Source: Leptospirillum ferrooxidans C2-3
Lineage (GTDB): Bacteria; Nitrospirota; Leptospirillia; Leptospirillales; Leptospirillaceae
NCBI RefSeq assembly: GCF_000284315.1
Contig: NC_017094.1
Coordinates: 527,486-591,485, forward strand
DNA: 64,000 nucleotides
Reading direction: 5' to 3'
Positions 6,498 through 57,587 of the stretch are shown one piece after another. The stretch's first letter is position 1. The number at the start of each line of letters is the position of its first letter. The notes under the pieces were generated by a model. That model saw only the letters and a program-made list of their open reading frames with translations, was not told where the DNA came from and did not search any database. Position numbers and translations under genes: made by a program.

Positions 6498-6928
6498 TGG
6501 ATCTTCCTCCCCTTCCTGTCCCAGTCGCGTGCGTCCGTTCGGCGGCTGGATATTACGGGCTTCCTCCTCTCGCGATTGTCGGGATTCTTGGTGCGGAAGG
6601 GGGTCGTCTCGGCCAGGCGGTCCGCAATACCGACGGGTCCGAGGACCTGGGCCCAATGCAGATCAACAGCCGGTGGCTGCCTCGTCTCGCCCGATACGGT
6701 TTGACCCGCAGCAAACTTCTCATGAATCCGTGCGCAAACGTTTGGGCAGGGGCGTGGATACTCGCCCGATCCTATGCCCGGGACGGAGATGTCTGGATGG
6801 CAATCGGGCACTACCATTCAGGACGTCCAGGGGAAAGCCGGAAATATCGTCTCCGGGTTTCAAGAATTCTCTCCAAGTGGCTTGAACGGGAAGGGATTGA
6901 TCGGGGAGGAGAAGCGGATGGCCGGTAG
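6494..6928 (+). CDS. Lytic transglycosylase of transfer system (VirB1/PilT-like)
   Basis: About 144 residues. Goose-lysozyme-like SLT fold: the catalytic Glu lies in IVGILGAEGG (near residue 34), followed by NTDGSEDLGPMQINS and a late NVWAGAWIL helix. These are the family hallmarks of VirB1, IncI PilT and similar proteins. It would open peptidoglycan locally so the channel or pilus can be built. There is no obvious signal peptide, as in several plasmid homologues. It lies directly before dotH, with its end overlapping that start. ATG codons at 6494 and 6497 are both possible starts. Confidence 0.85.
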   Translation: MMDLPPLPVPVACVRSAAGYYGLPPLAIVGILGAEGGRLGQAVRNTDGSEDLGPMQINSRWLPRLARYGLTRSKLLMNPCANVWAGAWILARSYARDGDVWMAIGHYHSGRPGESRKYRLRVSRILSKWLEREGIDRGGEADGR

Positions 6929-20700: not shown

Positions 20701-20820
20701 GAGAAGACCGGAGAGCGGGCAGTAGAACTCCAGGAGAAACGGCTGGAAAAAGAGCAGGAGAAAAAGAAAGAGGCTCCCCGGATCGAGCGGCAGAGAGGTC
20801 GGGACGGGATGGAGTTTTAA
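17722..20820 (+). CDS. MobF relaxase-helicase (TrwC/TraI-like)
   Basis: 1032 residues from the ATG at 17722 (TGATG overlap). Relaxase domain first: tyrosine pairs at about 15-16 and 21-22 (ETYYRKDDYY), and the His triad at about 152, 163 and 165 (RVTHMTSR, DPQLHDHVV). A RecD-like helicase follows: Walker A NGYAGVGKTTM near 450, VVVIDEAGL near 530, then GYAQTGHSAQGLGAQ and FYTNLTRTKD. The last 150 residues are highly charged (Glu/Lys/Arg). It nicks oriT, stays bound to the 5' end, and unwinds the plasmid. MobF enzymes usually pair with VirB-type channels, so finding one with a Dot/Icm-type channel is notable. Confidence 0.95.
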   Translation: MALGRNISPAQGETYYRKDDYYLEREGGDDHRLEWGGKLAVELDLSGKAGAEDWKNALNGHFPGGIEIEGGSFKDPKTGERERRAGTDFEFSAPKSISLQALVHGDEELVRAHREAVDVAMAALEREVGARRGHAGKNWETSGKGLIGRVTHMTSRAGDPQLHDHVVFMNITKNSDGNYQAMTNDRMMNYQRLVQEIYFEELAHRMESMGYELEKGKYGEPEIKGYTREHIEHFSKRTSDVDAYLMKHFGETRETASPAHKRLAAEHSREAKKVREMEGLQKEWESRARDLGMEKVLPEKERKHLSPSSRLEIARDSLKFAIEHHTERESAVKEGELIRTALQAGRGKVTSRDIEKAVDESKAEGQLIRQSGAGSKQNLMTSREALEREKRILSFEKSGRHAVVPVMNPLQAENALKAIQEKEGLILNHEQKSAARMILTTDNRYSGINGYAGVGKTTMLKPAIESLQNGVAVSALTNAGYRVIGLGPQHSAVHALRDAGIIESRTLQSWLADRQAGKNLNDKTVVVIDEAGLTNASDLESAMKRIEKAGARAVLVGDIKQYESVAAGPVFRLLQDNGMETVYVKEMQRQKNAPENVREAARLSIESPEAALSKLEIREIRNSQERFKAISEAYLKSKDPKETLCLTGTHDARKAVNNHVRESLGLAGCGNEFTRYEAGDFTEAQKKRIDAYEVGQDIRFGKDYRSVKVKSGELGKVVEVDKETGQVLLKMEDGREATLTPREMSGKGHEIGQLEKIELSKGDRIRITGNELKKEGITNGMRGAVLESKNGMLKILLDSGKTFDLKPGSRPVEIDHGYAQTGHSAQGLGAQTVILDLPSSSQTLNRRSFYTNLTRTKDQVIAFTDNMEKLTGAVSREKDKTMALDVEKEVQEKNRERKTKNLPDELRFGETPEQTKARFEKGGIEIDDVGFFGRPGEQGEKTEIETGGIAPVVPPGQGEKKIPGEEKTTEMKKEKREEEIMSKERERSREKEREKTGERAVELQEKRLEKEQEKKKEAPRIERQRGRDGMEF

Positions 20821-27891: not shown

Positions 27892-28711
27892 GCTTGCCAT
27901 GTCGTTCCTTGCTCTTTCCCTTTGCCTTTCGCCAAAAATCGCATTTGCCGCCGGATTGCCTTCCGGGGCGAATTCCCGCCAGACGCTGCCGACCATCGGA
28001 CAGGCCGAACATCCAGTAAAGCCGGACGACAAGCTCCGGAAGCGGGCGCTTCGCCAGTCGGCCCAAAAAAAAGCGGCCTTGTCGTGGGGCGCCCAGACCG
28101 GGTATGCCAGAAAAACTAGTCTTCGGAACCGTTGGCTCAGGAAGGAGTCATTCCTCCTCGACCGGGTCTTCAGCTTCCGGCCGTTTCTGTCCACGGATGA
28201 GCATGTGCTTCTGCCTTCGGTCGATATCGGGAAGAGGGCATTCAAGCTTGAAGACAGAACCTCATCGGACTCGACGCTCGTGTCCTATCGCATTCATGAG
28301 CCGGCCAGGATTATTTCCATTCCTCCCACCTTCCGGGATTATCTGATCCTTTCTCCCGGGACGCCTAAAAAGGTCAATTCCCTTCTCCTTCCCAAAAATT
28401 TGAAGGAGAAAAAACTTTGGAAAAAATGGACGGACAGGGGATGGAATGCCGGCGAGCGACTCTCCGATCAGGCGTTCCGGATTGGAATGCGACGGCTTGT
28501 CAGGGCGATCGAGGGAAGAATCCGTTTTTATGAACTGACGCTCGCCGGCCAGATCGACCGGCCTACCTGGGCACGATCTCCGGCCGCCACGCTTCGGACG
28601 GGTGAAGTTCTCGAAATAGGGGACACGGTTCTCCGGATTACGAGACCGGCCCGGTTTACCGCATCGAAGCACTGGAAACCGTTAGAAGTGAAGGAGGAGG
28701 AAGAAAAGTGA
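27881..28711 (+). CDS. dotC: DotC (TraI)-like outer-membrane core protein
   Basis: 276 residues with a signal peptide (cut near AFAAG). Characteristic DotC features: RKRALRQSAQKKAALSWGAQ, then FLLDRVFSFRPFL, IPPTFRDYLIL, WKKWTDRGWNAGERLSDQAF and GRIRFYELTLAGQI. Legionella DotC is a lipoprotein, but this one has no lipobox cysteine, an oddity. It starts 11 bases before the end of dotD and overlaps the dotB start. Confidence 0.8.
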   Translation: MKNRLAMSFLALSLCLSPKIAFAAGLPSGANSRQTLPTIGQAEHPVKPDDKLRKRALRQSAQKKAALSWGAQTGYARKTSLRNRWLRKESFLLDRVFSFRPFLSTDEHVLLPSVDIGKRAFKLEDRTSSDSTLVSYRIHEPARIISIPPTFRDYLILSPGTPKKVNSLLLPKNLKEKKLWKKWTDRGWNAGERLSDQAFRIGMRRLVRAIEGRIRFYELTLAGQIDRPTWARSPAATLRTGEVLEIGDTVLRITRPARFTASKHWKPLEVKEEEEK

Positions 28712-29823
28712 GTCTTCCTCTTCCCGAACTTCGCGATCCGGTCCGGCATGACCGGGACAGTCTCGATTCCTTGCTCAGAACCCTCGTATCGGTCGGGGCC
28801 TCGGACATCCTTCTGGTTTCCGAATCCCCCGTCCGGGCCTATCTCCGGGGACGATGGGAGACGGTCGGAACGAGAGCGGTCAAGACCCACGAACTCGCGG
28901 ACATCCTGAACGCCATCGACATGGCGAACGCGTCTTCGATGGTGGCTTCGGGAACGGCTCGAAATATCGCCTACGAAGTCTCCTTGGGGAGCAGGGAGTC
29001 CCGTTTGAGGTTCAGGGTCAATGCGACGGGAACCCGGCGGTCCGGTCCCCGGGATCTGAAGATCGTTCTCCGGAGCATCCCTGACGTGCCTCCGACGCTC
29101 GAATCGATGGGGCTTCCTCCGGAACTTGTGGCTGCGCTTTTCCCCCTGGACGGGCTGGTGGGCGTGGCCGGCGCCACGGGATCCGGAAAAAGCACGCTCC
29201 TGGCGGCCAACCTTCGTGAAAAGCTCGAACGGGGCGGGTGCCATATCGCCACCGCGGAAGCGCCCATCGAATTTGTCTACGACAAGGTCGAGACTCGGGA
29301 AACCGGAATTATCGTCCAGAGCGAGGTTCCCACCCATCACCCTTCCTTTGGCAAGGCCGTGGAGGAGATGCTCCGGCAAAAGCCGGATGTGATCCTGGTC
29401 GGCGAATCACGAGACGCGGAGACGATCTCGAACACGGTATTGGCTTGTCAGACCGGGCATACCGCCTATACGACGATCCACACCAACGGAGTGGGAGAAA
29501 CCATCGGACGCATGGCGGAGGCCTTTCCCGGTCCAGAGCGGGATGCTGTGGCTTCCAAGATCCTTGCCGCCATGAGGGTTCTGGTTCACCAGAGGTTGAT
29601 CCGGAAAGCCGACGGTTCCGGACGGGTGGCTGTTCGGGAATGGCTCGTGTTCGACCGGGACATCAAAAGAACTCTCATGGCCTCACCCTGGTCCAACTGG
29701 CCGTTTCTGATCGGCGATATTCTTGTGAAACGGGGACAAAGTGCCTCCCAGGATGCCCGGCGTGTCTATGAGGCTGGTCTGATTGCCGAAGATTCCCTTC
29801 TGGCGATTGAGGGAGGCGCCTGA
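28708..29823 (+). CDS. dotB: DotB (TraJ) secretion ATPase
   Basis: 371 residues from a GTG at 28708 after AGGAGGAAGAAAA. PilT/VirB11-type ATPase: N-terminal domain with GASDILLVSESPVRAYL, Walker A VAGATGSGKSTLLA near residue 155, Asp box ATAEAPIEFVYD, Walker B KPDVILVGESRDAET, His box TGHTAYTTIHTN. It powers the type IVB channel from the cytoplasmic side. Order and sequence match IncI traJ and Legionella dotB. Confidence 0.92.
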   Translation: MSLPLPELRDPVRHDRDSLDSLLRTLVSVGASDILLVSESPVRAYLRGRWETVGTRAVKTHELADILNAIDMANASSMVASGTARNIAYEVSLGSRESRLRFRVNATGTRRSGPRDLKIVLRSIPDVPPTLESMGLPPELVAALFPLDGLVGVAGATGSGKSTLLAANLREKLERGGCHIATAEAPIEFVYDKVETRETGIIVQSEVPTHHPSFGKAVEEMLRQKPDVILVGESRDAETISNTVLACQTGHTAYTTIHTNGVGETIGRMAEAFPGPERDAVASKILAAMRVLVHQRLIRKADGSGRVAVREWLVFDRDIKRTLMASPWSNWPFLIGDILVKRGQSASQDARRVYEAGLIAEDSLLAIEGGA

Positions 29824-32029: not shown

Positions 32030-32676
32030 GAAGAATCGCCCCTGTATTTCTGGTGCTTGCTATCCTTCTTTCCGGGTGTATTCCGGAAAGGGATCTGAAT
32101 TTGTCGGATGTGTCCCCGCAAACATTCGAGTCCCTTCCCTATGAGGGCGGAGGGCTCCTGTGCCGGACGCCCGTCCCTGTCCCGGATGTCCGGGTCGTCT
32201 CCCGCACGGTTCATGCCATGGCGGGATCCGAAGGGCGAATCCGGGAGGCTGTCCTCCCTTCCGGAATGGCTTTTGGTGTCTGGACCTCTGCGGTTCGGGC
32301 CCGATCGATCAGAGATTACATTCGAAGCATCTCCCGCAGCCGGAAGGTTCGGGTCTCCGTCAGCCTGTCCCGGATCGACCGCGCGGTTCCTTATGTTTCG
32401 AGAACGTTTTTCGTGCGGACCCGACATGCGTTCATGGCCGCCCGCTGGAAGGAAGGAGACAGAATTTTGGCTGTGAGGGGATTCTTCATGCGTACTGGCC
32501 CCCATATTGTGCCGGTTTTTTCCATGGAAGAACGATCATTGGGCTGGTTTGCCTGTCGTACGGAGACACCGGGATTTTCCGGCGGGAGGATCTCTTTCGA
32601 TTCCTCCCGGGCGACCGTCAAAACCGGTACCGAAACCTTGAGAATCGATTGGGAGACAAAAGATGCGAAACGTTAA
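32026..32676 (+). CDS. Pilus-operon lipoprotein of unknown function
   Basis: 216 residues; ATG at 32026 overlaps the previous stop. Lipoprotein signal with lipobox LLSGC. The mature region is beta-rich with several Arg residues and one late Cys. It occupies the slot between pilL and the secretin, where R64 has pilM, but it does not look like PilM; a PilM-like gene lies at 40522 instead. Possibly an envelope helper of the secretin. Confidence 0.65.
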   Translation: MRRIAPVFLVLAILLSGCIPERDLNLSDVSPQTFESLPYEGGGLLCRTPVPVPDVRVVSRTVHAMAGSEGRIREAVLPSGMAFGVWTSAVRARSIRDYIRSISRSRKVRVSVSLSRIDRAVPYVSRTFFVRTRHAFMAARWKEGDRILAVRGFFMRTGPHIVPVFSMEERSLGWFACRTETPGFSGGRISFDSSRATVKTGTETLRIDWETKDAKR

Positions 32677-34483
32677 ACTGGAAACATGGGGTGCAATGAT
32701 TCTTTCCGCGGGGATCATCCTGTGCGCGGGATGTTCTTTCGACAAACACGTCGATATTTCCGCGACGAAGGACATCAACAAGGGGTTGAAAACGTTCAGT
32801 GACGCCAAGCCAAAACCTCCGGAAGACTTCGAGGTGAGCGATTCGGCGTGGTTTGCGGGATCTGAGGACCGGGTGCGGATTCGGCGGTCGGAGCATATTC
32901 GGCTTCATATCCGTCCGAAGCATCTTCCCGCGCTTTTTGAAAAGCGCGTTCTCCTGGTTTCCGAAAAGCCGATCGGCATTGCCGATATCACCAGCGAAAT
33001 CACGACCTCGACGGGACTTCTCGTGACCGTGACGACTCCCCGGAAAATGGGGATATCGGGCAATGTTTCGGGCATGGGTGGCGGTATGGGCATGCCGATG
33101 ATGGGAGGATCCTCCCCCGCCGGAGCACCGTCTGCTCCCTCCCTTCAAGCGGGAACATCTTCCGGGGAAACGTTTCTCAAGAAGAAGATCCGGGTGGACT
33201 GGGACGGTTCCCTCGAAGGACTCCTGGATTATACGGCCAGCCGGTTCGGGCTCTTCTGGACCTACCGGGACCATGTGGTCTCTTTCGGTCGCACGACCAC
33301 GAAAATCTTCCGGATCAACGCCGCTCCCGTCATGAATATCGTGTCGAATTCGATCTCGGATTCCGGTATGACGGGGCTTTCCAGCATCCTCATGAACCAG
33401 GGCGCCGCCGGTGGCATGGGAGGAGGGGCCGGTATGATGGGCGGGGGGATGACGGGAGGAATGGGTGGCTCCTCCATGATGGGTGGCGGTATGTCCGGGG
33501 GGATGACGGGAGGAATGGGAGGATCTTCCATGATGGGTGGGGGTATGGGCGGCGGGATGGGGGGAAGCGGACAGAATGTCTCCTCTTTTTCCATCTCCAC
33601 GGTCTGGAGCGAAATCTCCCAGAGCCTGAAATCGATTTTGGGAGGTCGGGGCAATTATTCCATCGCCCAGTCAGCGGGGACTGTTACGGTTACCACGACC
33701 CCCCGGATCATGGGAGAAATCGCCGAGTATGTTCACGATCTGAATAACTCCCTCTCCCGACATGTCTGGCTCAAGGTGGAGGTCCTGGACGTCAATTTGA
33801 CGGACCAGAACGCCAACAGCTTTAACCTGTCGGCCGCGCTTTCGGGACTCGCCAAGAGCGGATCGATTCTTACGACTGGCCAGCCGGGGGTCTTTTCACT
33901 CGCGGGAGCCAGTCCGATCACTACGACGACCATGACACTTCCAAACTCTTCCACGAACGCGGTCATTCATGCGCTTTCCTCTCTCGGCAAGACATCGGTG
34001 GCGACCCGCTCCTTCGTCACGACCTTGAACGACCAGGCCGTTCCTGTCCAGAACGTTCAGAATATTGGTTACCTGATGGAAAATCTGGCCGGAATCGCGG
34101 GAATCGGGCAATCCACATTCACGCAAAACATCCCGGGATCCGTCACCGTCGGGTTCACGATGACCCTGGTGCCCCATCTTCTGGACAACAAGGAAATGCT
34201 CCTTGGCGTTTCGATCGACGACACCAATCTGAACCAGATGCAGACCCTGACCTCCGGAGGAGGGTCGATCCAGCTCCCGAACACGTCCCAGAGATCGTTC
34301 ATGCAATGGGTCAAACTGACTTCCGGACAGACGGCGGTCATCGGTGGCTACGAGCAGACCCGCCGGGTCTTTCAGCAGAACGGTACCGGCACTCCGTCGA
34401 ACTTCTATCTTGGCGGTGGACAGAATTCCCAGATCGTCCGGGATGCGATCGTCATTCTGGTCACGCCGGTCGTGGGGGGGTAA
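32663..34483 (+). CDS. pilN: PilN outer-membrane secretin of thin pilus
   Basis: 606 residues; overlaps the end of the lipoprotein gene. Lipoprotein signal (ILCAGC). The N-terminal domains include a small N0-like unit (FEKRVLLVSEKPIGIADIT) and a Gly/Met stretch. The C-terminal secretin domain includes SRHVWLKVEVLDVNL, TSVATRSFVTTLNDQAVPVQ, PGSVTVGFTMTLVPHL and GQTAVIGGYEQ. It forms the pilus exit pore, as in R64 PilN and BfpB. Between residues 250 and 300 is a tandem Gly/Met-rich repeat. Confidence 0.9.
   Translation: MRNVKLETWGAMILSAGIILCAGCSFDKHVDISATKDINKGLKTFSDAKPKPPEDFEVSDSAWFAGSEDRVRIRRSEHIRLHIRPKHLPALFEKRVLLVSEKPIGIADITSEITTSTGLLVTVTTPRKMGISGNVSGMGGGMGMPMMGGSSPAGAPSAPSLQAGTSSGETFLKKKIRVDWDGSLEGLLDYTASRFGLFWTYRDHVVSFGRTTTKIFRINAAPVMNIVSNSISDSGMTGLSSILMNQGAAGGMGGGAGMMGGGMTGGMGGSSMMGGGMSGGMTGGMGGSSMMGGGMGGGMGGSGQNVSSFSISTVWSEISQSLKSILGGRGNYSIAQSAGTVTVTTTPRIMGEIAEYVHDLNNSLSRHVWLKVEVLDVNLTDQNANSFNLSAALSGLAKSGSILTTGQPGVFSLAGASPITTTTMTLPNSSTNAVIHALSSLGKTSVATRSFVTTLNDQAVPVQNVQNIGYLMENLAGIAGIGQSTFTQNIPGSVTVGFTMTLVPHLLDNKEMLLGVSIDDTNLNQMQTLTSGGGSIQLPNTSQRSFMQWVKLTSGQTAVIGGYEQTRRVFQQNGTGTPSNFYLGGGQNSQIVRDAIVILVTPVVGG
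33415..33575 (+). repeat. Gly/Met-coding tandem repeat in pilN
   Basis: Two near-identical blocks of about 60 bases coding GGMTGGMGGSSMMGGGM, followed by a shorter third piece. A related short patch lies near 33066. In-frame length change by slippage is possible. Confidence 0.8.
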
Positions 34484-34486
34484 CCA

Positions 34487-35899
34487 TTGGCCCAGGTCGT
34501 CCGGATCGGAAAGAAAAAGTATGCAGTCGGCCTCTCCTGGGGACCCCTCACGCCCGACCGGCCGCTCAGGCCACAGGCGATCGAGAAAACCCGCCACAGC
34601 AAAAACGATCTCTATGTGACCTCCGGAGACATCGAGCCGATGGTCGGCCACTGCGATCAGGCGAACGGTGTAAAAGCGGGGCTTCCTGTCCTGGCTCCGC
34701 TTGTTGCGGATGGGTGGCCTGCGAACACACTGATTGCGTTGGCTCCAGACGGACAGCCTGCAATCGGATTCCAGATTTTAAACGGAATCATCTACGACGA
34801 TGTGGTGGGGAGTGTCGAAGAAATCCGGACATGGTTCGACGGAATCGTCGGAGAGCACAAGTGGGACCATGTTTCCTCTCCATGGGATGCTTCTGGTGTC
34901 AAAACATCCGCCTTCGAAGATTCCATCCGGACAAGTGGAGTGAAACCTCCCAGGCTTCATTCGGTAAGAGAGGGGAGGGGGGCGGCGATCAAGGTCACCG
35001 TTTTGATCCTTCTCGTTCTGGCCGGCTTTGTCGTCGTTTCGAAGATCGTTCGGGATCGTCAGGAGATGGCCGCCCGCTTGGCGCTTCTTTCCCGGCATGT
35101 GGTCATTCATGTGACCCCGCCAGCCCGCATCGTACCTGTCGGAGCTTTTGTCGCGGGTTGTCTTTCGGCGGTCAACCGGATCCCCTCGGACGCGGTGGGA
35201 TGGACGGTCCAAAGCATCTCCTGTCGCCCGGACAAGATCTGGATCCTGTGGAAGAGATCCTCCGGATCGGGGACGATCCGGGATCTCGAAAGGGCTCTTT
35301 CCTCCCGGGTCAAACTCGTCGGAAAGAACAGGGCCAAGACCGGAATTTCCCTGTCTGTTCCGGAATACGAAATTCCTGTCGGGAGACTTCCTGATCTCGA
35401 GGAGGAAAAGAAAGATCTTGCCTCTGTACTGGAATATTACAATCTCGACTATCAAGCGGCGGGTGATTCGTTTCTTCCGGGGTTTTCCGGAGGGAGTGGT
35501 GCGGGATTTTCGGTCAACCTTCCCGATATTCCCGATGACAGACTTTTGTCAGCCCTGGGATCGGTCAACGGCCTTTCCGTCCGCTCCCTTGATTGGGCCG
35601 GAAAATCGCAGTGGATTTTAAAAGGAGAATTAAAACATGCGCCGATCATTTTGGTTCACGACCGTTCTGATGGTCGCTTTGGGAGGGGAACTTCTGGTGA
35701 GAGTGGCTCCGGTCCAGGCGGGAAACACGAATCTTCTCCCCCCTTCGGAAAATCAGGGAGGAGTTCTGTCGGGGAGCGTCAATTCGGCTCCGTTTCCGGA
35801 AACCTCGCCCCCAGGGAGTCTTCCGGCCCAATCGAAAAAACAAAGGGACAGTATGAGGGAACGGCCCTCCCTTCCGTCCGTCTCCCCGGGGACCGATGA
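34487..35899 (+). CDS. pilO: PilO pilus assembly protein
   Basis: 470 residues from a TTG at 34487. The N-terminal cytoplasmic domain starts KKYAVGLSWGPLTP, with later GLPVLAPLVADGWPAN. A transmembrane helix lies near residues 168-188 (VTVLILLVLAGFVVVSKIV), followed by a periplasmic domain. This is the plan of R64 PilO, an inner-membrane platform protein. The reading frame runs 263 bases into pilP; the last 87 residues are Gly/Ser rich and may be read-through past a lost stop. Confidence 0.8.
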   Translation: MAQVVRIGKKKYAVGLSWGPLTPDRPLRPQAIEKTRHSKNDLYVTSGDIEPMVGHCDQANGVKAGLPVLAPLVADGWPANTLIALAPDGQPAIGFQILNGIIYDDVVGSVEEIRTWFDGIVGEHKWDHVSSPWDASGVKTSAFEDSIRTSGVKPPRLHSVREGRGAAIKVTVLILLVLAGFVVVSKIVRDRQEMAARLALLSRHVVIHVTPPARIVPVGAFVAGCLSAVNRIPSDAVGWTVQSISCRPDKIWILWKRSSGSGTIRDLERALSSRVKLVGKNRAKTGISLSVPEYEIPVGRLPDLEEEKKDLASVLEYYNLDYQAAGDSFLPGFSGGSGAGFSVNLPDIPDDRLLSALGSVNGLSVRSLDWAGKSQWILKGELKHAPIILVHDRSDGRFGRGTSGESGSGPGGKHESSPPFGKSGRSSVGERQFGSVSGNLAPRESSGPIEKTKGQYEGTALPSVRLPGDR

Positions 35900-36341
35900 A
35901 AGTTCCCCGGGGACCTACGGCAGTCATCGTTCTCTGGGCTCCCTTTTCGAACTCAAACGGCAGGAGACCCTTCTGAAAAGGGAAATCGCCATCAAAAAAC
36001 TACAGAAGCAGCTCTCGGGGCATAGCGCGAAAAAAACGCTCGACACGGGTACACAAGGATCTCCCATGACGCTTCTTGCGGCGGGTATCGACGGAAATCG
36101 CTATGCCGTTCTGGCCTGGCCCGATGGAAGAAAAATCCGGGTTCGGGAGGGAGAAAAACTTCCGGATGGCACCCGAGTTATCAGGATAGACGGCTCCGGA
36201 GTTTCCGTTCAAAAACGCGGATCGATAGTGACCTATCCGTACGGAGAAGCGTCCGGATCTCGCCAGGGTGGGGGAATCCCCCAGTTTTCCGGATTCTCTC
36301 CTCCTCCCCCTCCGTACCAGAGGACAGGAGGGCATCCGTGA
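35637..36341 (+). CDS. pilP: PilP pilus assembly protein
   Basis: 234 residues; ATG at 35637 after AAAAGGAGAATTAAAAC. Signal peptide ends near VQAG. A coiled stretch (LKRQETLLKREIAIKKLQKQL) precedes a C-terminal domain with YAVLAWPDGRKIRVREGEKLPDGTRVIRI, typical of R64 PilP. It probably bridges PilO and the secretin in the periplasm. Its first third overlaps pilO in another frame; its strong ribosome site and signal peptide show this frame is real. Confidence 0.82.
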   Translation: MRRSFWFTTVLMVALGGELLVRVAPVQAGNTNLLPPSENQGGVLSGSVNSAPFPETSPPGSLPAQSKKQRDSMRERPSLPSVSPGTDESSPGTYGSHRSLGSLFELKRQETLLKREIAIKKLQKQLSGHSAKKTLDTGTQGSPMTLLAAGIDGNRYAVLAWPDGRKIRVREGEKLPDGTRVIRIDGSGVSVQKRGSIVTYPYGEASGSRQGGGIPQFSGFSPPPPPYQRTGGHP

Positions 36342-38782
36342 AAGTTTTCGAACTTCCTCACCACCTCCCGGTCGAGGTGGTTTCCGAACCGGACGGGGAC
36401 CTCCCGGCTCCCTCATCGCTTTTGGAGGGACTTGTGGGAATGGGAAACGGCCAGCTCTTCGCTCTGAAAGAGTTCAAGGGGAGGGCGGATGTCGATGCCT
36501 ACATCGCCCGATTCTCCGAGTATCTGGAAACATCCGGGAAGGGAGGGGAGCGTATGGTTTTCTGGGTCGAGAAACCCATTTTTGCGAATGTTCTTTCGAA
36601 GCTCAGGGAGCTTCCTGGCCCTTCTTCACCGAGTTCCAATTTATTGCCAGACCCCTCCAACATGGAACAGTCTCCGGAGACATCTCTTCCTGATGAGGTT
36701 TTTTCAGAAAAAGACGGGATTCCCATCCCCGAATCTCTTTCCAAAAAAGTGGTTGCAATGGAGGATGGTCAGATCGTAGCATCGGAAGACCTTCGCGGGA
36801 GTTCGGATTTCGCCCTTTTTGTAGGACAAACTTCCATGAGGATGGAGGCCAGGGGAACCATTGGACAATTTCGGATTTCCTATGTTCCAAACAGAAAAAT
36901 CCGGGATCTTCTTGCGAAGAGGCTTCGAGAGTGTGAGGAGGAAGACTATTCCCATCTTTTGGGCGAGATGGGGCTTTTGAGCATCAATACGGAGGAAGAA
37001 GCCCGCAAGCCAGCGGAAAGTCTTGAGAAGGAGACCTCTAAAAAATATTCCGGAGAAAAATGTGCTCCAGGGATTCCCCTGATAAAGGATTCTGCGGGAG
37101 GTTCCCCCTCCAGGTCTCTGGCAACCGATGTTGGAAAGGGAATTTCGGAGGTTTTGGAAGAAAAAAAAGAATCCATCAACTCCAGGGAGGGGGACACTGA
37201 ATGCCTTTCGGTCCCGTCCGGAGGCACCATTCCGGATTTTCGGGCACCGGAAGATATCGCTTCCATGGTTCTTCTCTTTCTGGACGGCCGTTTCTATGTG
37301 TCCAGGGAGCACAAGACAAACCAGCATGTGAACTATTATTGTCGGCATTTCGTTCCGGAATTGTGGCCAAAGATTTTTGGCGACAAACCAGTTCCGAAGC
37401 CGCAGTATGTGCCATACGAGCACCTGCGGAAAATCCGTCTGGAAAACTTGCCCTCCGAGTCTGTCGCAGACGGATACAAGGCAGAGGGGGACGAGGCCCG
37501 GAAAATCATGGAGATCATTCGGGACGCCATCGCCAGGAAAGCCTCCGATATCCATCTCCGAATCGAACGGGACCGGACGAGAATCCTTTTAAGGATCCAC
37601 GGCTGGCTCAAGCCCGTACAGACACTGACCCACGACGAAGGAGAACGTCTCGCCCGGATTGTCTACAACACGATGCTCGATTCCTCCGGGCGGGATAATA
37701 TGTTTTCCGACAAGAAACCCCAGGATGGACAGTTTCGGCAGGATTACCTTCCCCGGGGCACCTTCAATATCCGGGAGTTCCATGCCCCGACGGGAGGGAC
37801 GGGCCTCGGGACTATCACGATGGTCTTGAGGCTCCAGTACGGCTCAGGAACCGCTACTGCGTCGGCCCAGGATATCGATACTCTGGGGTACGGGGCGGAT
37901 CACTTGGCTCAATTAAGGTATCTCATGGGATTGTCCTATGGAATCGTCCTTTTTTCCGGGCCCATGGGATCCGGAAAATCCACCTCCATGGCTTCGGTTC
38001 TCTCGATCGTTCTGTCGATGAATCCGCTCGAGGAGGGGAGGGGCCTCCATCTTGCGACGCTCGAAGATCCTCCGGAGTACGTGATTCCGACAGCCAGCCA
38101 GATTGCTGTCCCTGGTGGCCTCTTTTCCGAGGTTCTTGGGCGCATCATGCGTTTTGATGCGAATCTTTTGATGATCGGCGAAATACGGGACGAATCGACG
38201 GCCGAAAAGGCGGTCGAGGGGGCCATGAGCGGACATGTGGTCTATTCGACCGTGCATGCGAACGATGTTCTTTCCATTCCCCGGCGTCTGGATGGATTAA
38301 AAGTCCGACGGGATCTCCTGTGCGACCCGACGATTTTTCGCGGCATGATTTGCCAGCGACTCGTCCCCCTTCTTTGTCCGGATTGCAAACTTTCATGGGA
38401 GAAAGCGGAAAAAGCTGGAATCTTGCGACCGGATCTTTTAAAACGCCTGGAAGATGTCTCTGTGGATTCGGAAGAGGCTTTTTTTCACCGTGCCGGCGGA
38501 TGTGACACCTGCAATGGGCAGGGAATCACCGGGAGGACAATCGTTGCGGAAATTCTCATTCCCGATCAGGAAATTCTGGATCTTGTCGCAGGGGGACGCA
38601 TGACGGACGCCTGGCGTTACTTCTCGGAAAAACTCGAAGGTCGTACGATGATGGATCATGCGCTTGAAAAAATCCGGATGGGGGCCGTTGATCCGCGCGA
38701 TGTCGAGGCCCGTCTTGGATGGATCCACAAAGGATCTCTCGACAGCCGGACGATCCGGGAAATTATCGGAGGGCTTTCATGA
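36338..38782 (+). CDS. pilQ: PilQ pilus assembly ATPase with three N-terminal modules
   Basis: 814 residues from a GTG at 36338. The C-terminal 420 residues are a GspE/PilB-type ATPase: KASDIHLRIERDRTRILLR, Walker A SGPMGSGKSTS near residue 542, EDPPEYVI, LLMIGEIRDEST, HVVYSTVHAN, and a CPDCK/CDTC zinc site. R64 PilQ is about 500 residues, so some 300 are extra. The extra part has three related units, each with a GQ/GR-h-x-h segment and a FWVEK/YVPN/YVPY segment (near residues 30, 145 and 310). It powers pilus extension. Confidence 0.9.
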   Translation: MKVFELPHHLPVEVVSEPDGDLPAPSSLLEGLVGMGNGQLFALKEFKGRADVDAYIARFSEYLETSGKGGERMVFWVEKPIFANVLSKLRELPGPSSPSSNLLPDPSNMEQSPETSLPDEVFSEKDGIPIPESLSKKVVAMEDGQIVASEDLRGSSDFALFVGQTSMRMEARGTIGQFRISYVPNRKIRDLLAKRLRECEEEDYSHLLGEMGLLSINTEEEARKPAESLEKETSKKYSGEKCAPGIPLIKDSAGGSPSRSLATDVGKGISEVLEEKKESINSREGDTECLSVPSGGTIPDFRAPEDIASMVLLFLDGRFYVSREHKTNQHVNYYCRHFVPELWPKIFGDKPVPKPQYVPYEHLRKIRLENLPSESVADGYKAEGDEARKIMEIIRDAIARKASDIHLRIERDRTRILLRIHGWLKPVQTLTHDEGERLARIVYNTMLDSSGRDNMFSDKKPQDGQFRQDYLPRGTFNIREFHAPTGGTGLGTITMVLRLQYGSGTATASAQDIDTLGYGADHLAQLRYLMGLSYGIVLFSGPMGSGKSTSMASVLSIVLSMNPLEEGRGLHLATLEDPPEYVIPTASQIAVPGGLFSEVLGRIMRFDANLLMIGEIRDESTAEKAVEGAMSGHVVYSTVHANDVLSIPRRLDGLKVRRDLLCDPTIFRGMICQRLVPLLCPDCKLSWEKAEKAGILRPDLLKRLEDVSVDSEEAFFHRAGGCDTCNGQGITGRTIVAEILIPDQEILDLVAGGRMTDAWRYFSEKLEGRTMMDHALEKIRMGAVDPRDVEARLGWIHKGSLDSRTIREIIGGLS

Positions 38783-39867
38783 AAACAATTTCCTTGTCCG
38801 GAAACCTCCATGCATTCAAAAAGAGGCTCTCGTTCGGCCCTGGCGTTCGACGAAAGTTCTACGCCGACCTGGCTTCCATTCTCCGGACAGACTCATCGAT
38901 GAGCCCAGTCCAGATCCGTGTCGCGATCGAGGAGTTCAAGAAACTTCCCTCCGCACCGAAGGCCGCGTTAGTGGAAATCGGAGCGGGGCTCGGCCGCGGT
39001 CGCGATTTTTCCAAAGCAATTGAAAATCTGACTCCGGAGTCGGAATCGATGATTCTCCATGCGGCGGAATCCACCGGCGATTCCAGAATCATGGTTCGCC
39101 TTCTTTCGACTCTTGCCGCAAATATGGACGAGTCCAGAAAAATCCGAAGGGCCTTTCTGGGAGCACTCCAGCAGCCGGCATTTCTGTTTTTGAATATCGG
39201 GGTGATTACCGTCTATATTTCGGATTCCCTGCTCCCCAAGATCTTCCAGGCGTTCAAGATCTCCCAGGACCGGTTGTTCGGGGCGGCCAGAATCTCTTTC
39301 GACCTCTTCTCCTTCGTTCACCATTTCTGGTTATTGATCGTGCTGTTCCCCTTCCCCGTCATCGGGGTGGTGTGGGGATCCTTGCGTCGGGATTTTCCCG
39401 GACGCAGGTTTCTGGATCGTCTTCCGCCCTGGTCCATCTACCGGATGATGATGGGAACGGAATTTCTGCTGGGTTTGTCAGCCATGCTGGAAGCGGGCAT
39501 TCCCGTTATGCAGGCGTTCGAGCAGATTCGTAAACAGGCGCCGCCGTACCTCCGGGCGAGGATTGTTCCCGTCATGAAAATTTACCGGCGGACCGGAAAA
39601 CTGGGAGATGCGATGGAGAAGAGCCGGACCCACTTCCCTTCCGACGAGATCATCGTCCGGCTTTCCCTTCGGGAAAAATACGGCGATCTGGGACCGGCCC
39701 TCGCAGAATTCGCGCGGGACTGGAAGGAGGACGGTTTGCCGAAAATAGAACGTCAGGCCCAATATCTGAATTACGGTGCCATGACACTGGCCGCTGTGGC
39801 GATCGGTTTTCTGGGGCTTGGAATACTCCAGATCGTGCAGCAGGCGATGGGCGGACTTGGGGTTTGA
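38779..39867 (+). CDS. pilR: PilR inner-membrane pilus platform (GspF-like)
   Basis: 362 residues; the ATG at 38779 overlaps the pilQ stop. GspF/PilC-type protein with two related halves, each a cytoplasmic helical bundle followed by membrane segments (about residues 140-160, 195-215 and 338-358). The second half has LGLSAMLEAGIPVMQAFEQI and RTGKLGDAMEKS. It forms the assembly platform for pilin with PilQ. Confidence 0.88.
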   Translation: MKTISLSGNLHAFKKRLSFGPGVRRKFYADLASILRTDSSMSPVQIRVAIEEFKKLPSAPKAALVEIGAGLGRGRDFSKAIENLTPESESMILHAAESTGDSRIMVRLLSTLAANMDESRKIRRAFLGALQQPAFLFLNIGVITVYISDSLLPKIFQAFKISQDRLFGAARISFDLFSFVHHFWLLIVLFPFPVIGVVWGSLRRDFPGRRFLDRLPPWSIYRMMMGTEFLLGLSAMLEAGIPVMQAFEQIRKQAPPYLRARIVPVMKIYRRTGKLGDAMEKSRTHFPSDEIIVRLSLREKYGDLGPALAEFARDWKEDGLPKIERQAQYLNYGAMTLAAVAIGFLGLGILQIVQQAMGGLGV

Positions 39868-39939: not shown

Positions 39940-40509
39940 ATGACAAAGACAATCGCCTGGTGGAAACAGAATCGTATTCGGGTGATCCGGACACTCTCGG
40001 ACGAAAGGGGTGTTGCTGACGATGGACCCATGTCCATTCTGCTGGGAATCGGCTTGGGGATCATTCTTCTGGCCGCCCTGGTAGGCGTTTTTAAATTCGC
40101 CTTCTCGAGCACGACCAGCGCCATCTCGTCCTCCGGGGCATTTGAAATTCAGACCGGAGTGAAACAGGTGGCTTCTCCGGGAAATTATGGGTCAGGAGAT
40201 CTGACGTCTGCCCTCATTGCCTCGAAATCCGTTCCCAGCAACATGATTATTCCTGGAAATACGACGACGCTCCAGGGGCCGACGGGAACCTCTTTCTATA
40301 CGGTGACCGGAAACTACAGCACATTCTCGATCACCTTGGCCGGAATTACGAGCTCGGGATGCATGAGAACATTGGAGCAGACCACGACAGGAAATTCCTG
40401 GTACTCCGTCTCGGTCAACGGATCGAGCGTCACTCAACCGGTAAGCGTTCAGATGGCCCAGGGGGTCTGTTCCTCCGGAAGCGACACGATCACCTGGGTT
40501 TCGGACTGA
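39940..40509 (+). CDS. pilS: PilS major pilin (type IVb)
   Basis: 189 residues; ATG at 39940 after GAAGAGGAGGAAGAA. A basic leader ending DERG is followed by a hydrophobic helix (ILLGIGLGIILLAALVG) and a Ser/Thr/Gly-rich globular domain with two cysteines (SGCMRT and GVCSSG) that can form the usual C-terminal disulfide loop. PilV shares the DDRG sequence before its helix, so cleavage after RG is likely. The glutamate normally at position 5 of the mature pilin is not there. The gene follows its own operator-like palindrome, suiting a highly expressed pilin. Confidence 0.82.
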   Translation: MTKTIAWWKQNRIRVIRTLSDERGVADDGPMSILLGIGLGIILLAALVGVFKFAFSSTTSAISSSGAFEIQTGVKQVASPGNYGSGDLTSALIASKSVPSNMIIPGNTTTLQGPTGTSFYTVTGNYSTFSITLAGITSSGCMRTLEQTTTGNSWYSVSVNGSSVTQPVSVQMAQGVCSSGSDTITWVSD

Positions 40510-40521: not shown

Positions 40522-41001
40522 ATGTGGCTTTTGCTGGGGATCCTTCCGATCGCACTCCTTCTGTCCGGGATGTCCATGACTGTTTCCCGAACAAGTGTGC
40601 CGACTCTTGAAAATGCGAACCGGTTTTCCCTCGAGGCAAACCAGGAAGCGACCCTGTTTCAGTTGTATCGAGAGGCGGTGGCAAATTATCTCGACGCCAA
40701 TCCGGGCTTTAACGGGGAGGTTCCTGTCTCCTCACTGAGTCTTCCTATTGGAACGATCCTTCCGTCGATGTTCGGAAACACCGTTTCGGGAGGGGTTGCC
40801 TGGACCTGGATCGCCCCTTCCTCATCTCTTGTCTACTCTCCGGATGTTGTGATGGGACCGGAGTTTGCCAAGTCCTTCGGTTCTCTTCTTGTGGGGGTGA
40901 ACAAAAATGGAACCTTTGCTTCACCCTCGGGAATTTCCGTTTCCATCGGTGTTCCATCGTTCGTTCCGAATGGCTCTATCGTGTCTTTTTGGGAGGTTTG
41001 A
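40522..41001 (+). CDS. pilM: PilM pilus protein
   Basis: 159 residues, ATG at 40522 just after the pilS stop. One N-terminal hydrophobic helix, then TLFQLYREAVANYLDANPGFNGEVPVSSLSLP and a beta-rich tail, the pattern of the PilM family of R64-type pili. Displaced from its R64 position (between pilL and pilN) to between pilS and pilV. Needed for pilus function in R64; mechanism unclear. Confidence 0.75.
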   Translation: MWLLLGILPIALLLSGMSMTVSRTSVPTLENANRFSLEANQEATLFQLYREAVANYLDANPGFNGEVPVSSLSLPIGTILPSMFGNTVSGGVAWTWIAPSSSLVYSPDVVMGPEFAKSFGSLLVGVNKNGTFASPSGISVSIGVPSFVPNGSIVSFWEV

Positions 41002-41004: not shown

Positions 41005-42027
41005 ATGTCAAAACATTGCTTTCTGAAATCCTTGGCGGATTTTCGGCTGGATGATCGGGGAAACTCATCTTTGCTGGGAATGATCCTTGCAACGGCTCTC
41101 GGCACGATCCTGATTGCGAACACGGTTCCTTTCTGGCTCGAGACACAACATCACGCGCTCATGGACCAGACGACCGCCCAACAGATCCGACAGGTCTCGG
41201 ACGGATTGGCCGGGTATACGAAGGCCTATTATTCCGCGATCGAGGGGGTGAGCACGGCCACCAAGCCGGCGGTCATTCCAATCTCCGCTCTTGTTGCCAC
41301 AGGGTTCTTGCCGGCCGGAACGAACACCGTCGATCCGTATGGGCAGACAGTTGTGGGGGAGATTCTTCAGCCCATTGCCGGTATTCTTGTCGGAGCGGTG
41401 GTCACCCAGGGGGGAACGGCCCCGGCCGGCGCGCACCTGAACCAGCTCGCAACCCTGATCGGGGCTCAAGGGGGATTTGTCCCAACGTCGGATATCCTGT
41501 CCCTCCCTGGGATTTGCGGAACAAACTGCTATCAGGGATCCGGTGGAACATGGAAGGCGAGTTTTTCCCAATACCCTTTTACGGGAGTGGGGCCGGGAAG
41601 CCTGATTGCCCTTCAGCAGTTCAATGCAAACAACATGCCCCAGGATTTTCTCTATCGCTCAAATATTCCTGGATTCCCCCAGGCGAACCAGATGCAGACC
41701 AGTATCAATATGAACGGGAACAACCTCAATAACGCCAACCAGGTGCAGACCTACAACCTGAACAGCCCGAACGGGACCGTCAACATGGACGGAAATTCAC
41801 TTTCTTCCGGTTCGATCAACACGAATGGACAACCAATCTACTCGGGAGTGGCAAATATTAACGGACCTACTGGATATGCCCAATGCTCTCTTCCTCACCC
41901 CGGATATGGGTGTGGGTTAGTAGGACCGACTTACTCTGCGGGCGTAAGTATAGGAGGTGTCCCTATCTGTTTTGGGGTGTTTGGTGCCGATAACAATTCG
42001 GCAGTTTTTCTTGTTCCATGCTTGTAG
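41005..42027 (+). CDS. pilV: PilV tip adhesin with shufflon-encoded C-terminus
   Basis: 340 residues. Leader with DDRG followed by a pilin helix (LLGMILATALGTILIAN). The constant body includes ADGLAGYTKAYY-like and TNTVDPYGQTVV segments and a tail of Asn-rich repeats (NMNGNNLNNANQVQT). The variable C-terminus begins at GQPIYSG, exactly where an inverted repeat lies (41830). The current 65-residue end is VANINGPTGYAQC to FLVPCL. Two other ends, also starting QPI-x-x-G, lie reversed downstream. In R64 the PilV end decides which recipient cells are recognised. Confidence 0.88.
   Translation: MSKHCFLKSLADFRLDDRGNSSLLGMILATALGTILIANTVPFWLETQHHALMDQTTAQQIRQVSDGLAGYTKAYYSAIEGVSTATKPAVIPISALVATGFLPAGTNTVDPYGQTVVGEILQPIAGILVGAVVTQGGTAPAGAHLNQLATLIGAQGGFVPTSDILSLPGICGTNCYQGSGGTWKASFSQYPFTGVGPGSLIALQQFNANNMPQDFLYRSNIPGFPQANQMQTSINMNGNNLNNANQVQTYNLNSPNGTVNMDGNSLSSGSINTNGQPIYSGVANINGPTGYAQCSLPHPGYGCGLVGPTYSAGVSIGGVPICFGVFGADNNSAVFLVPCL
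41828..41847 (+). repeat. Shufflon recombination site 1 (in pilV)
   Basis: Contains CAACCAATCTACTCGGG (41830-41846), repeated in inverted orientation at 42302-42318. The site reads GQPIYSG in the pilV frame and marks the constant/variable border. Confidence 0.88.
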
Positions 42028-42045
42028 ATTGAGCTTTTCCTTTTA

Positions 42046-42318
42046 TCAATCAAAGCACGTCGCTGTTGGGGAGGCTACGTCTCCTGACTCGTTCCAAGAA
42101 TAAAGCGTCCACGACGGGAGGCCACCCGTTACGGTGGGCACGAGCATGTTGGGTCCGTCCGGCCACCCAACCTCCCCCGATAAAGCGCAAAACGCATGTA
42201 TCCCCAATCCCCATGCTCCGGTACAAGCTCCAGCTGAGTAGTAGGGATAAACTCCACAAGGGTTATAGTAAGAGACTTGGTTCGTGTTTGGGTACAACGC
42301 CCCCGAGTAGATTGGTTG
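42046..42318 (-). CDS. Silent alternative PilV C-terminus B
   Basis: A 90-codon open frame with no start of its own, beginning exactly at the recombination site (QPIYSGALYPNTNQ) and ending TGA at 42046. It is rich in Gly, Pro, Trp and Cys, like an adhesin end. Inversion of 41830-42318 would fuse it in frame to pilV in place of the present end. Its stop lies 18 bases from the stop of the active end, so the invertible segment carries two opposed ends, as in R64 segments. Confidence 0.85.
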   Translation of the reverse strand, partial: QPIYSGALYPNTNQVSYYNPCGVYPYYSAGACTGAWGLGIHAFCALSGEVGWPDGPNMLVPTVTGGLPSWTLYSWNESGDVASPTATCFD

Positions 42319-42320
42319 GC
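42301..42320 (-). repeat. Shufflon recombination site 2
   Basis: Inverted copy of site 1; 17 identical bases plus flanking GG. Its codon frame matches the B cassette exactly. Confidence 0.88.
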
Positions 42321-42336
42321 CAATGGCTTTGCTACG

Positions 42337-42349
42337 GCCAATCCATCTC
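42337..42349 (+). repeat. Degenerate shufflon site 3
   Basis: GGCCAATCCATCT matches 11 of 13 bases of the left part of site 2 (GGCCAACCAATCT), in the same orientation as site 1. It lies 19 bases from site 2 and just beyond the stop of cassette C, where a boundary site is expected. Confidence 0.5.
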
Positions 42350-42358
42350 TAGAGGTAC

Positions 42359-42652
42359 TCACCACTGTGCTCCGGGGTTTTGCCATTCTGGTGGTCCACC
42401 ACCAGGGGCCGTATTTCCAGCAGAACCACCTCCACCTCCATTTTCATATGCCTGAGTCATTCGGTCCATTATTGCCAGATTATTGGCAACAATTCCTGTA
42501 AAACACGCCCATTCCCCGGCATAGCACCCACATTCCCCTTTCCAGTAATTGTATTCGAGCGTATATGTCGGGCATGGGCTCACCCATAGGCCCATTTTGT
42601 CTTGCGCCCAAGAAGTTGTAGTCGTATTAACCGTTCCTGCAGAGATTGGTTG
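42359..42652 (-). CDS. Silent alternative PilV C-terminus C
   Basis: A 97-codon open frame without its own start. It begins at recombination site 4 (QPISAGTVNTTTTSW) and ends TGA at 42359. It contains four cysteines (LWVSPC, GECGCYAGEWAC) and a Gly-rich end. If the DNA between sites 1 and 4 were inverted, this end would join pilV in frame. The open frame continues beyond the site toward the recombinase only as a shadow. Confidence 0.82.
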   Translation of the reverse strand, partial: QPISAGTVNTTTTSWAQDKMGLWVSPCPTYTLEYNYWKGECGCYAGEWACFTGIVANNLAIMDRMTQAYENGGGGGSAGNTAPGGGPPEWQNPGAQW

Positions 42653-42654
42653 TC
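42643..42654 (-). repeat. Shufflon recombination site 4
   Basis: Reverse complement reads GACAACCAATCT, identical to the left 12 bases of site 1; the right part differs. In R64 the recombination sites also share only part of their length. Confidence 0.7.
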
Positions 42655-42688
42655 TCTTCCTTTTTCCAGGAGTCTCCGATAAGAGCAC

Positions 42689-43708
42689 ATGCAGACTCCA
42701 ATCATTATTGTGGTTCCTCCTTCTGAACATTCCATCACGATCCGAATCGATTGTTCCTCTTCCTGTCTCTTTAAAAACCAGGTCGTGCCGGTCGTTTCCC
42801 TTCAAACATGCTACGACAGCTATGTTTCCCTGCGTGTTCTGCGCCAATCGACAAGAACGGGTTACAACCGGGTCGTTCTGAAGTATCTTGCCGACTGGCT
42901 GGAACGGGACCTCTCGTCTCTGACGGACGACGAGATCCTCAAAAAATACGCGTGGATCCGGGAAAAATCCGGATCTGCTCAGGCGGCGCTTGCGGTCAGG
43001 GTGCTTAAGGCTCTTTATTCTTATGCGATTGCAAGATTTGGGATTCCAGAACGAAATATTGGAAGGATCCTTCGTGTAGCCGGAATAGCTCTCACTCCCA
43101 TCAGGAAAACACAGCTCATTCACAAGAACGATCTTCCGAAATGGTACAAGGCCGTTTCTTCTCAAAGCAAAACCCGGCAGGAACGCACAGCTCGGGATAT
43201 CTTCCTGGTCGGACTCTTTACCGGTCTCAGGAAAACGGAGATCATGTCCCTCAAGTGGGAAGACATTGATCTTCGGTCCCGAACCCTGACAGCCAGAAAT
43301 ACAAAAAATCACAGGGACCATACTCTGCCACTTCCGGATTTTCTGGTTCGACTTTTACGGGAACGAAAACCGGATGTGGGGAAATCTACCCATGTTTTTC
43401 CGGGAAAGGATCTTACCGGTCGAATCCGGGATATTGACGATTCCCGATTTCGGGTGATCGAGGAATCCGGAATTGCCTTCACGATTCATGATCTCAGGAG
43501 AACCTTTGCGACGATCGCGGCGGAGATGGGTATACCACCTTACCTTCTGAAAAAGCTCCTGAACCACAAGTCCGGAGACGTTACTGAGGGGTACGTGATC
43601 TCGACTGTCGAAATTTTACGGAGTTCTGTTCAGAAGATCGCGAAACGGATAGAAGATCTCTGCCGGATGAAAAAGGAGGAAGAACCGGTCCGGGAGGAGT
43701 CTGCATAA
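42689..43708 (+). CDS. rci: Rci-like shufflon tyrosine recombinase
   Basis: 339 residues from the ATG at 42689; a GTG at 42710 is another possible start. The N-terminal SAM-like DNA-binding domain is around STRTGYNRVVLKYLADWL. The catalytic set is complete: R181 (TGLRKTEIM), a Lys in the beta-hairpin (TKNHR), H267-xx-R270 (HDLRRTF), H293 (LLNH) and Y302 (EGYVI). It lies directly after the pilV cassettes, as rci does in R64, so it is the likely enzyme for their inversion. A role as a general integrase cannot be excluded. Confidence 0.88.
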   Translation: MQTPIIIVVPPSEHSITIRIDCSSSCLFKNQVVPVVSLQTCYDSYVSLRVLRQSTRTGYNRVVLKYLADWLERDLSSLTDDEILKKYAWIREKSGSAQAALAVRVLKALYSYAIARFGIPERNIGRILRVAGIALTPIRKTQLIHKNDLPKWYKAVSSQSKTRQERTARDIFLVGLFTGLRKTEIMSLKWEDIDLRSRTLTARNTKNHRDHTLPLPDFLVRLLRERKPDVGKSTHVFPGKDLTGRIRDIDDSRFRVIEESGIAFTIHDLRRTFATIAAEMGIPPYLLKKLLNHKSGDVTEGYVISTVEILRSSVQKIAKRIEDLCRMKKEEEPVREESA

Positions 43709-46707: not shown

Positions 46708-46790
46708 ATATTGATGAATGACAAAGGTGCTTCCTAAATAGAGTCGTCTCCAATTATAGATTGTTTTTGCAATATACACAGGAGGTCACA

Positions 46791-47972: not shown

Positions 47973-48150
47973 AACTTGGTGTGTATATGTGGATCCAAGT
48001 TATTGAGTGAGTGGAATAAATCCATCTTGGATACTCCAGCCTAAAATAAGAGAAGGGCAATGCCTTACTTATTGACCTGCAGATTCTGCAGTCGAGGCTG
48101 TTTCTTTTTTTATTTCGAGATCCTTTTTTGGATAGAATGACTTTTTATTA

Positions 48151-49314: not shown

Positions 49315-49366
49315 AGAAACGAACCCTCTCGGAAATAAGGAGGTTCCTCCTTGGAAAGATTTTTGC

Positions 49367-49400
<34 letters not shown>

Positions 49401-49420
49401 CTTCAGGTCTCAACCGGTCG

Positions 49421-51997: not shown

Positions 51998-52075
51998 ACC
52001 TCAGAGGATTTTCCTGAACAGGAACAGATGCGTTACTAGAGAAGAATGATGGACAAAAATAAGAAGGAGTTTTTT

Positions 52076-52402: not shown

Positions 52403-52463
52403 AGAAAAAGGGGGATGACAATATTGCAAATTTGATTCCCCTTAAGATGGAAGGAGTCGCGTC

Positions 52464-53300: not shown

Positions 53301-53402
53301 AAGGAAGATTGATTTTCAAGGCAATTGATAATAAGGGAGCGGGGGAGTGTGCCAATCTATCAAATTGATCACTCCTCCATCGATTGAGTTATCCTAATTT
53401 CG

Positions 53403-53753: not shown

Positions 53754-53771
53754 AAGAGAAACCTTTTCGAT

Positions 53772-55868: not shown

Positions 55869-55884
55869 CGATATTGTGACTTGG

Positions 55885-56864: not shown

Positions 56865-57587
56865 TCACAGCTTGTGTTCCTTCGCCAGAAACTGGGCAAC
56901 GGCCAGACCCTTCGGGTGAACCAGGACGCTGCGCCTGACCACCATGAGAGTGACAAGAAGATTCTGGGAAACGCTCGACTTGGCTGCTTGGTAGGTGACC
57001 AGGATGGGCACCTGGATCTTCCAGACGTAAACGCCCTTCAAAAGTCCCTTGGCGAGGATAACTCCTGCTTCTGTGGGAACGGCAGACGCTACCATGCGGT
57101 TGTCGGAGACGAGCTTCAGGTTGCCGGAGGCCTTGAGCGATCCGATAAACGAGGCAAATCCCTCTTTCGTGAATTCGGGGGAAAGCCCGGACAGGGCGGA
57201 TCTCCAGTTCACAAAATCATACGAATAGGCGGCGGTGGCCACATTTGTGGCCCAGGACACAACGGCACGGTCGGACGCGGCGGGGTGGGACAACGGTACA
57301 AGCGGCAGGATCCGGCCATCGTTCGTGGCGGCAAAATAGACGGGACTTTTGTGGACGAGCGCCCATCCCATCGCACCATTCAGAAGGACTGACGCCAGAA
57401 GAGCCCCCGCTCCATAGCGGAGAATCGCTGACTTGTTCCGGTACTCATCCTTGTAGAAGTCGTTCCGGAAACGAACAAACTCGGCACCTCCCTCCCGGAT
57501 CGGACTCGATCCGGGAGCAGAGGCCTTTTGTCCCGCTGAACCCCCTGTCGTTTGTTCCTTTTGTTTTCCGAATCCGAAGAGTCCCAT
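56865..57587 (-). CDS. dotI: DotI/IcmL (TraM) inner-membrane transfer protein
   Basis: 240 residues. One transmembrane helix at about 54-77, then the DotI/IcmL signature: VYFAATNDGRILPLVPL, VVSWATNVATAAYSYDFVNWRSAL, EFTKEGFASFIGSL, VYVWKIQVPILVTYQ and VVRRSVLVHPKGLAVAQF. The periplasmic domain is VirB8-like. In IncI plasmids this gene (traM) lies directly before traN; here it sits more than 48 kb away in a separate minus-strand operon. Its start overlaps the RadC stop. Confidence 0.9.
   Translation of the reverse strand: MGLFGFGKQKEQTTGGSAGQKASAPGSSPIREGGAEFVRFRNDFYKDEYRNKSAILRYGAGALLASVLLNGAMGWALVHKSPVYFAATNDGRILPLVPLSHPAASDRAVVSWATNVATAAYSYDFVNWRSALSGLSPEFTKEGFASFIGSLKASGNLKLVSDNRMVASAVPTEAGVILAKGLLKGVYVWKIQVPILVTYQAAKSSVSQNLLVTLMVVRRSVLVHPKGLAVAQFLAKEHKL
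57492..57517. repeat. Perfect palindrome in dotI N-terminus
   Basis: CTCCCGGATC-GGACTC-GATCCGGGAG: ten-base perfect arms within the codons for the SSPIREG segment, about 70-95 bases after the dotI start. Confidence 0.8.

Follow-up and report, generated by a model that had tools for sequence, protein, structure and literature searches.

PilV shufflons have, to our knowledge, been described with recombinases of the Rci family, and the elements that carry them are mostly enterobacterial or otherwise proteobacterial. Those of IncI2, IncK and pKF707 consist, like the locus described here, of pilV, an adjoining tyrosine recombinase and alternative pilV ends, and their recombinases are relatives of Rci (the pKF707 enzyme is 49% identical to R64 Rci). 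The tails of the shufflon of R64 (IncI1) bind recipient lipopolysaccharide and set the recipient range (PMC5430464, PMC3414803), and Rci, like all 14 shufflon invertases tested, has an extra C-terminal domain that was proposed to restrict Rci to inversion (PMC11852207). We analyzed a stretch of 64,000 nucleotides (here called the window, positions 527486-591485) of the Leptospirillum ferrooxidans C2-3 chromosome and found a locus that we read, with a probability of about 0.8, as a shufflon-type switch of a type IVb thin-pilus tip adhesin on a 95.5-kb integrative conjugative element, equipped with a recombinase outside the Rci family. We would class it as a PilV shufflon whose recombinase comes from another lineage, one that would work like the shufflon of R64 while lacking one defining R64-type feature, the Rci-family enzyme.

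Residues 55-275 of the PilV protein matched the Pfam family Shufflon_N (PF04917, E=1e-20), and the match ended at the final codon before a 17-base sequence, CAACCAATCTACTCGGG, which recurs downstream as an inverted copy, with exact identity ending at 17 bases (coordinates in Table 1). Exact inverted repeats of at least 17 bases appeared in none of 1,000 Markov simulations of this 1.7-kb stretch. A partial inverted copy of 12 bases, GACAACCAATCT, constitutes a third site. Inverting the segment 41830-42318 in silico generated a complete PilV of 365 amino acids ending in a 90-residue tail (A', QPIYSG...), while inverting 41830-42652 generated one of 372 amino acids with a 97-residue tail (B', QPISAG...), both tails being stop-terminated and in the pilV frame. 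The three tails and the recombinase gene are packed closely together, the gap between the last site and the recombinase start being only 37 bp. The window sites have the core CAACCAATC(TACTCGGG), read as Q-P-I; their left flanks differ at every site, sites 1 and 2 alone share a right arm, and the sites of the related array described below have no right arm in common. The sites of Rci-family shufflons, for comparison, are asymmetric, core and right arm being conserved and the left arm variable. These results agree with a preliminary description of this DNA, made from the letters alone, which had reported both inverted copies, the two minus-strand frames continuing that of PilV, the complete tyrosine recombinase directly behind them, the thin-pilus operon, and an R64-like gene order with unlike sites in a seemingly distant host. 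A degenerate direct site that it had placed near 42337 did not hold up, since the sequence there (CGGCCAATC at 42335) has 8 of 11 consensus bases, a level matched in 325 of 1,000 simulations and thus expected by chance, and would open merely RPIHL-stop.

According to the mechanism that we propose, the recombinase would pair the pilV site (41830, plus strand) with the inverted site at 42318 or 42652, the DNA between the paired sites would invert, and the last 65 residues of PilV would be exchanged, in the same frame, for the silent tail of 90 or 97 residues. We infer both that inversion happens and that this recombinase performs it. The alternative tails would then confer different binding specificities on PilV, just as the R64 tail picks the recipient cell.

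Relatives of the locus were sought among 396 genomes of the phylum, including that of the window. Shufflon_N was detected in two of them, the window genome and G019, and a close recombinase likewise in two, the window genome and G009, a member of another genus of the same family. The G009 recombinase is 65% identical, and next to it lie four copies of TGACAACCAAT(C) that all point the same way. Frames of 85, 65 and 71 codons open at three of these copies and, like the window tails, start with Q-P-I; two of these tails are closed by the TGA that directly precedes the following site. The array accounts for four of the five GACAACCAAT copies in this genome. At position 49883, the contig breaks off with the final base of the core CAACCAATC in the fourth copy. 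Repeats of 12 bases are not long enough to interrupt an assembly, whereas sequences behind the site that differ between molecules, as with mixed orientations, would interrupt it at that very point, and the contig end is thus circumstantial evidence pointing to rearrangement in that population. The array lies near a tRNA-Arg gene and an integrase. The second G009 integrase (L031:10178-11406), beside the tRNA-Arg gene near the array, is not the enzyme of the array, yet its identity to R64 Rci is 42% over 298 amino acids. DotH was not found in G009, an absence that is uninformative because the assembly is 88% complete.

Taken together, the window and G009 contain five silent frames, and the joint chance of their staying this open was about 3e-8 (product, Markov shuffles). 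Their composition is also strongly constrained: the silent tails hold 7 lysines and arginines in 408 residues, against an expectation of 44.5 in open frames with this composition (0/4,000), and each tail has two or four cysteines. Compared directly, G009 tail 1 and the rci-proximal tail of R64 proved to be homologous (z=8.4), and G009 tail 1 was the sole significant match (E=2e-4) when 1,361 six-frame fragments were searched with a profile of enteric tails of the rci-proximal type. A single-sequence tblastn search with this tail among plasmids gave nothing convincing (best E=0.2), and the relation to R64 shows solely by the direct comparison and the profile. With a profile of the R64 C tail, the top three fragments were three of the five silent tails, A' among them, each of them weak when taken singly (E between 0.4 and 2.8); A' compared with the C tail (5/1,000 shuffles; HMM E=0.5) is not counted as significant homology, and no relative of B' was detected.

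We then considered the recombinase. Its frame is open and, aligned with R64 Rci, contains all tyrosine-recombinase catalytic residues, with an identity to Rci of 24% over 156 amino acids. In the tree, it grouped in one clade with Legionella and Acinetobacter integrases (support 100/100), its closest sequence relatives being integrases of Legionella fallonii plasmid III (37%) and Acinetobacter baumannii (29%). A clade with the R64 and pKF707 enzymes was rejected (approximately unbiased [AU] test, p=1e-10, for a grouping chosen after the free tree was seen). The alignment also showed about 40 residues behind the catalytic tyrosine, compared to about 110 in R64 Rci, and the Rci C-terminal domain is missing; the label "Rci-like" given in the preliminary description thus has to be withdrawn. 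The relatives have the arm-binding domain PF13356 and adjoin no pilV or cassette array in the stretches read; the window and G009 enzymes have neither this domain nor the C-terminal one of Rci. The best reading of these data is that the recombinase derives from an arm-domain phage-integrase lineage, has lost its arm-binding domain and occupies the place of Rci.

These 14 invertases were all found via homology to Rci (PMC11852207), a search by which the window enzyme would be missed. The host genome encodes another recombinase, at 789325, whose identity to Rci (40%) exceeds that of the shufflon enzyme. On plasmid pKF707 (L054:3989-7428), pilV is followed by the Rci relative on the opposite strand, possibly forming a shufflon. 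In IMG/VR, neither relatives of the window recombinase nor the 17-mer were found, and searching GTDB genome contigs for the recombinase returned just one distant Cloacimonadota integrase. A "shufflon-specific DNA recombinase" of L. ferriphilum DSM 14647 (WP_036082283.1) was up 4.2-fold in NaCl-adapted cells (PMC9053815). This name, however, has also been put on ordinary integrases (PMC3414803).

Compared to the R64 shufflon, the locus has the same order of pil genes, pilV, cassettes and recombinase, a PilV constant part of the same family, a two-tail segment, its tails opposed, ahead of a one-tail segment, tails of similar length, and a short gap between the last site and the recombinase gene (about 54 bp in R64). 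Both reside on elements with Dot/Icm-type transfer genes, and the sister array in G009 provides a tail homologous to one of R64. In contrast, the recombinase is of another lineage and the site sequence differs, R64 having GTGCCAATCCGGTNNNTGG, read as C-Q-S-G. The six bases CCAATC common to the sites of the two systems lie in different frames and serve unrelated enzymes, which is within chance. In addition, the window has three sites and R64 seven, the locus is integrated in a chromosome, its relaxase is of the TrwC type rather than MOBP, and the hosts are distant.

The genes upstream of pilV encode PilM-, PilS-, PilR-, PilQ-, PilP- and PilN-like proteins of the type IVb pilus class. In the genome, which consists of one contig of 2,559,538 bases, a tRNA-Lys gene and an adjoining tyrosine integrase (L057:9211-10230) lie 10.8 kb to the left of the window. 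The 50 bp around the tRNA-Lys end (G000:C1:516624) are repeated directly at chromosomal positions 612125-612174. Since these att repeats flank 516624-612174, the window is wholly inside a 95.5-kb integrated element. With att repeats at a tRNA gene, an integrase, a relaxase, a coupling protein and secretion genes, this element is, judging from its gene content, an integrative conjugative element with MPF_I-like, Dot/Icm-type transfer genes, and the predicted conjugative setting of pilV is stronger than the preliminary description could tell. A ParM/StbA-like actin homologue is encoded among the transfer genes (30097-31137), and one protein (48151-49314) matches both the sigma-54 DNA-binding (PF04552, E=1e-8) and the GIY-YIG nuclease (PF01541, E=7e-6) domains, which are rarely seen together. 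Rfam and tRNA scans of the window gave no match.

Table 1. Features of the pilV locus and of the surrounding transfer genes (window coordinates)
Feature	Position	Strand	Basis
pilV constant part, 275 codons	41005..41829	+	PF04917 Shufflon_N; 86% identical in G019 over residues 1-275
Recombination site 1, within pilV, CAACCAATCTACTCGGG	41830..41846	+	Exact repeat
Expressed PilV tail A, 65 aa	41830..42027	+	Reading frame
Silent PilV tail A', 90 aa, opens at site 2	42046..42318	-	In frame after simulated inversion; Lys+Arg 0/90
Site 2, exact inverted 17-base copy	42302..42318	-	0/1000 simulations
Supposed degenerate direct site, 5-codon frame RPIHL-stop, probably no site	42335..42352	+	325/1000 simulations
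Silent PilV tail B', 97 aa, opens at site 3	42359..42652	-	In frame after simulated inversion
Site 3, 12 common bases GACAACCAATCT	42643..42654	-	Sequence match
Tyrosine recombinase, 339 aa, non-Rci lineage, without arm-binding domain and without Rci C-terminal domain	42689..43708	+	PF00589 E=1e-21; tree; AU test
PilM-like protein	40522..41001	+	PF07419 E=3e-20
PilS major pilin	39940..40509	+	PF08805 E=4e-9
PilR (T2SSF) inner-membrane protein	38719..39867	+	PF00482
PilQ assembly ATPase	36338..38782	+	PF00437 E=9e-60
PilP	35637..36341	+	TIGR03021, 30 bits, slightly under cut-off 34.65
PilN secretin (type IVb)	32663..34483	+	TIGR02520 E=4e-73, 247 bits, under cut-off 288
DotB/TraJ-like transfer ATPase	28708..29823	+	TIGR02524 E=9e-84 (under cut-off), TIGR02525
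TrwC-type relaxase	17719..20820	+	PF08751 E=6e-73
TrwB-type coupling protein	16433..17722	+	PF10412 E=1e-85
DotH/IcmK outer-membrane core protein	6774..8081	+	PF12293 E=3e-91
DotI/IcmL	56865..57587	-	PF11393 E=5e-69

Several observations weigh against a functional shufflon at this locus. The 12-base inverted match of site 3 is weak when taken alone, 79 of 1,000 simulations of the same 1.7-kb stretch reaching it, and the extent of sequence common to sites 1 and 3 (just 12 bp) or to the G009 sites (about 11 to 12) is smaller than in R64, whose repeats are 19 bp long. The one finished genome shows no inverted form, and a role in recipient choice is argued from R64 alone. The preliminary description had looked to homologues of the cassette peptides and to a coding signature in their frames. 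Homology was found for G009 tail 1 and not for A' and B', which have no homologue among plasmids at E<=1; the silent tails have open frames and a constrained composition, and their codon usage is not gene-like. The codon usage of the expressed tail is equally poor, and this measure is therefore uninformative as coding evidence.

Since the pilus lies in a conjugative element, recipient choice is its most likely role, and by analogy with R64 the tails probably select recipients. The rival that survives best accepts a working shufflon whose tails would let the host adhere to minerals, to a biofilm or to other cells rather than choose a mating partner. Type IV pili are held to aid the adhesion of acidophiles to mineral surfaces (PMC5880901), and the genes directly behind the shufflon (44195-56090) form a c-di-GMP and chemotaxis-like group, encoding HD-GYP-like, GGDEF, methyl-accepting type, protoglobin-PAS-GGDEF-EAL and PAS-GGDEF-EAL proteins. 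However, a single mobile element carries the pil operon together with the genes for relaxase, coupling protein and Dot/Icm-type transfer, as in R64, and a tail of the sister array has a homologue in R64; host attachment is the less probable function.

We consider it unlikely that the shufflon is frozen, that is, that the array once inverted but has stopped doing so through decay of its recombinase, its third site or its expression, leaving tail A fixed. A fixed PilV end does occur within the family: the PilV protein of G019, after the constant 275 residues, continues into a different end; the 19 kb read there contain no site, and the G019 genome has no close recombinase. The short match of site 3 and the poor codon usage of the tails would also fit decay. 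In contrast, the window recombinase has kept its open frame and every catalytic residue, site 2 still matches site 1 at all 17 bp, and both silent frames are intact and strongly constrained in composition. The G019 contig with the fixed-tail pilV (L060, about 14264-14841) has a tRNA-Gly gene and a recombinase match nearby and is perhaps a third such element.

Still harder to reconcile with the window is an integron-like exchange, in which the recombinase would chiefly insert and excise tail cassettes between direct sites, inversion being secondary. As in integrons, a tyrosine recombinase lies next to promoterless cassettes, the four G009 sites with their short tails are all direct, and the enzyme is without the C-terminal domain held to confine Rci to inversion (PMC11852207). 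However, the silent sites of the window face the opposite way to the one in pilV, so that only inversion can express them; there is no attC or attI, the enzyme scores 27 bits against the integron-integrase model TIGR02249 (cut-off 265), and the cassettes of the window and G009 are gene ends, not genes. Finally, coincidental frames and sites can be set aside: the 12-bp inverted match alone is not rare, but the 17-bp repeat, the five in-frame tails, their composition and the independent G009 array all contradict chance.

Returning to the shufflon-type switch, we tentatively consider one extension of it, which is possible and does not carry our main confidence. The locus may represent a convergent second shufflon lineage, in which an arm-domain phage integrase minus its arm-binding domain was recruited for tail switching and, without the inversion-only domain of Rci, might also insert and delete tail cassettes between direct sites. 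The array would then acquire and shed adhesin ends, much as genes are acquired by an integron, and the all-direct G009 array would be such a product.

The same PilV scaffold, with at least one related tail, is thus combined with an unrelated recombinase and other sites, meaning that switch and enzyme are separable. Because the enzyme is without the C-terminal domain credited in Rci, it lets the inversion-only determinant of shufflon enzymes be tested. Our findings also suggest that such systems escape surveys in which Rci and 13-base repeats serve as seeds. For acidophilic iron oxidizers, the locus is a candidate for recipient choice in conjugation.

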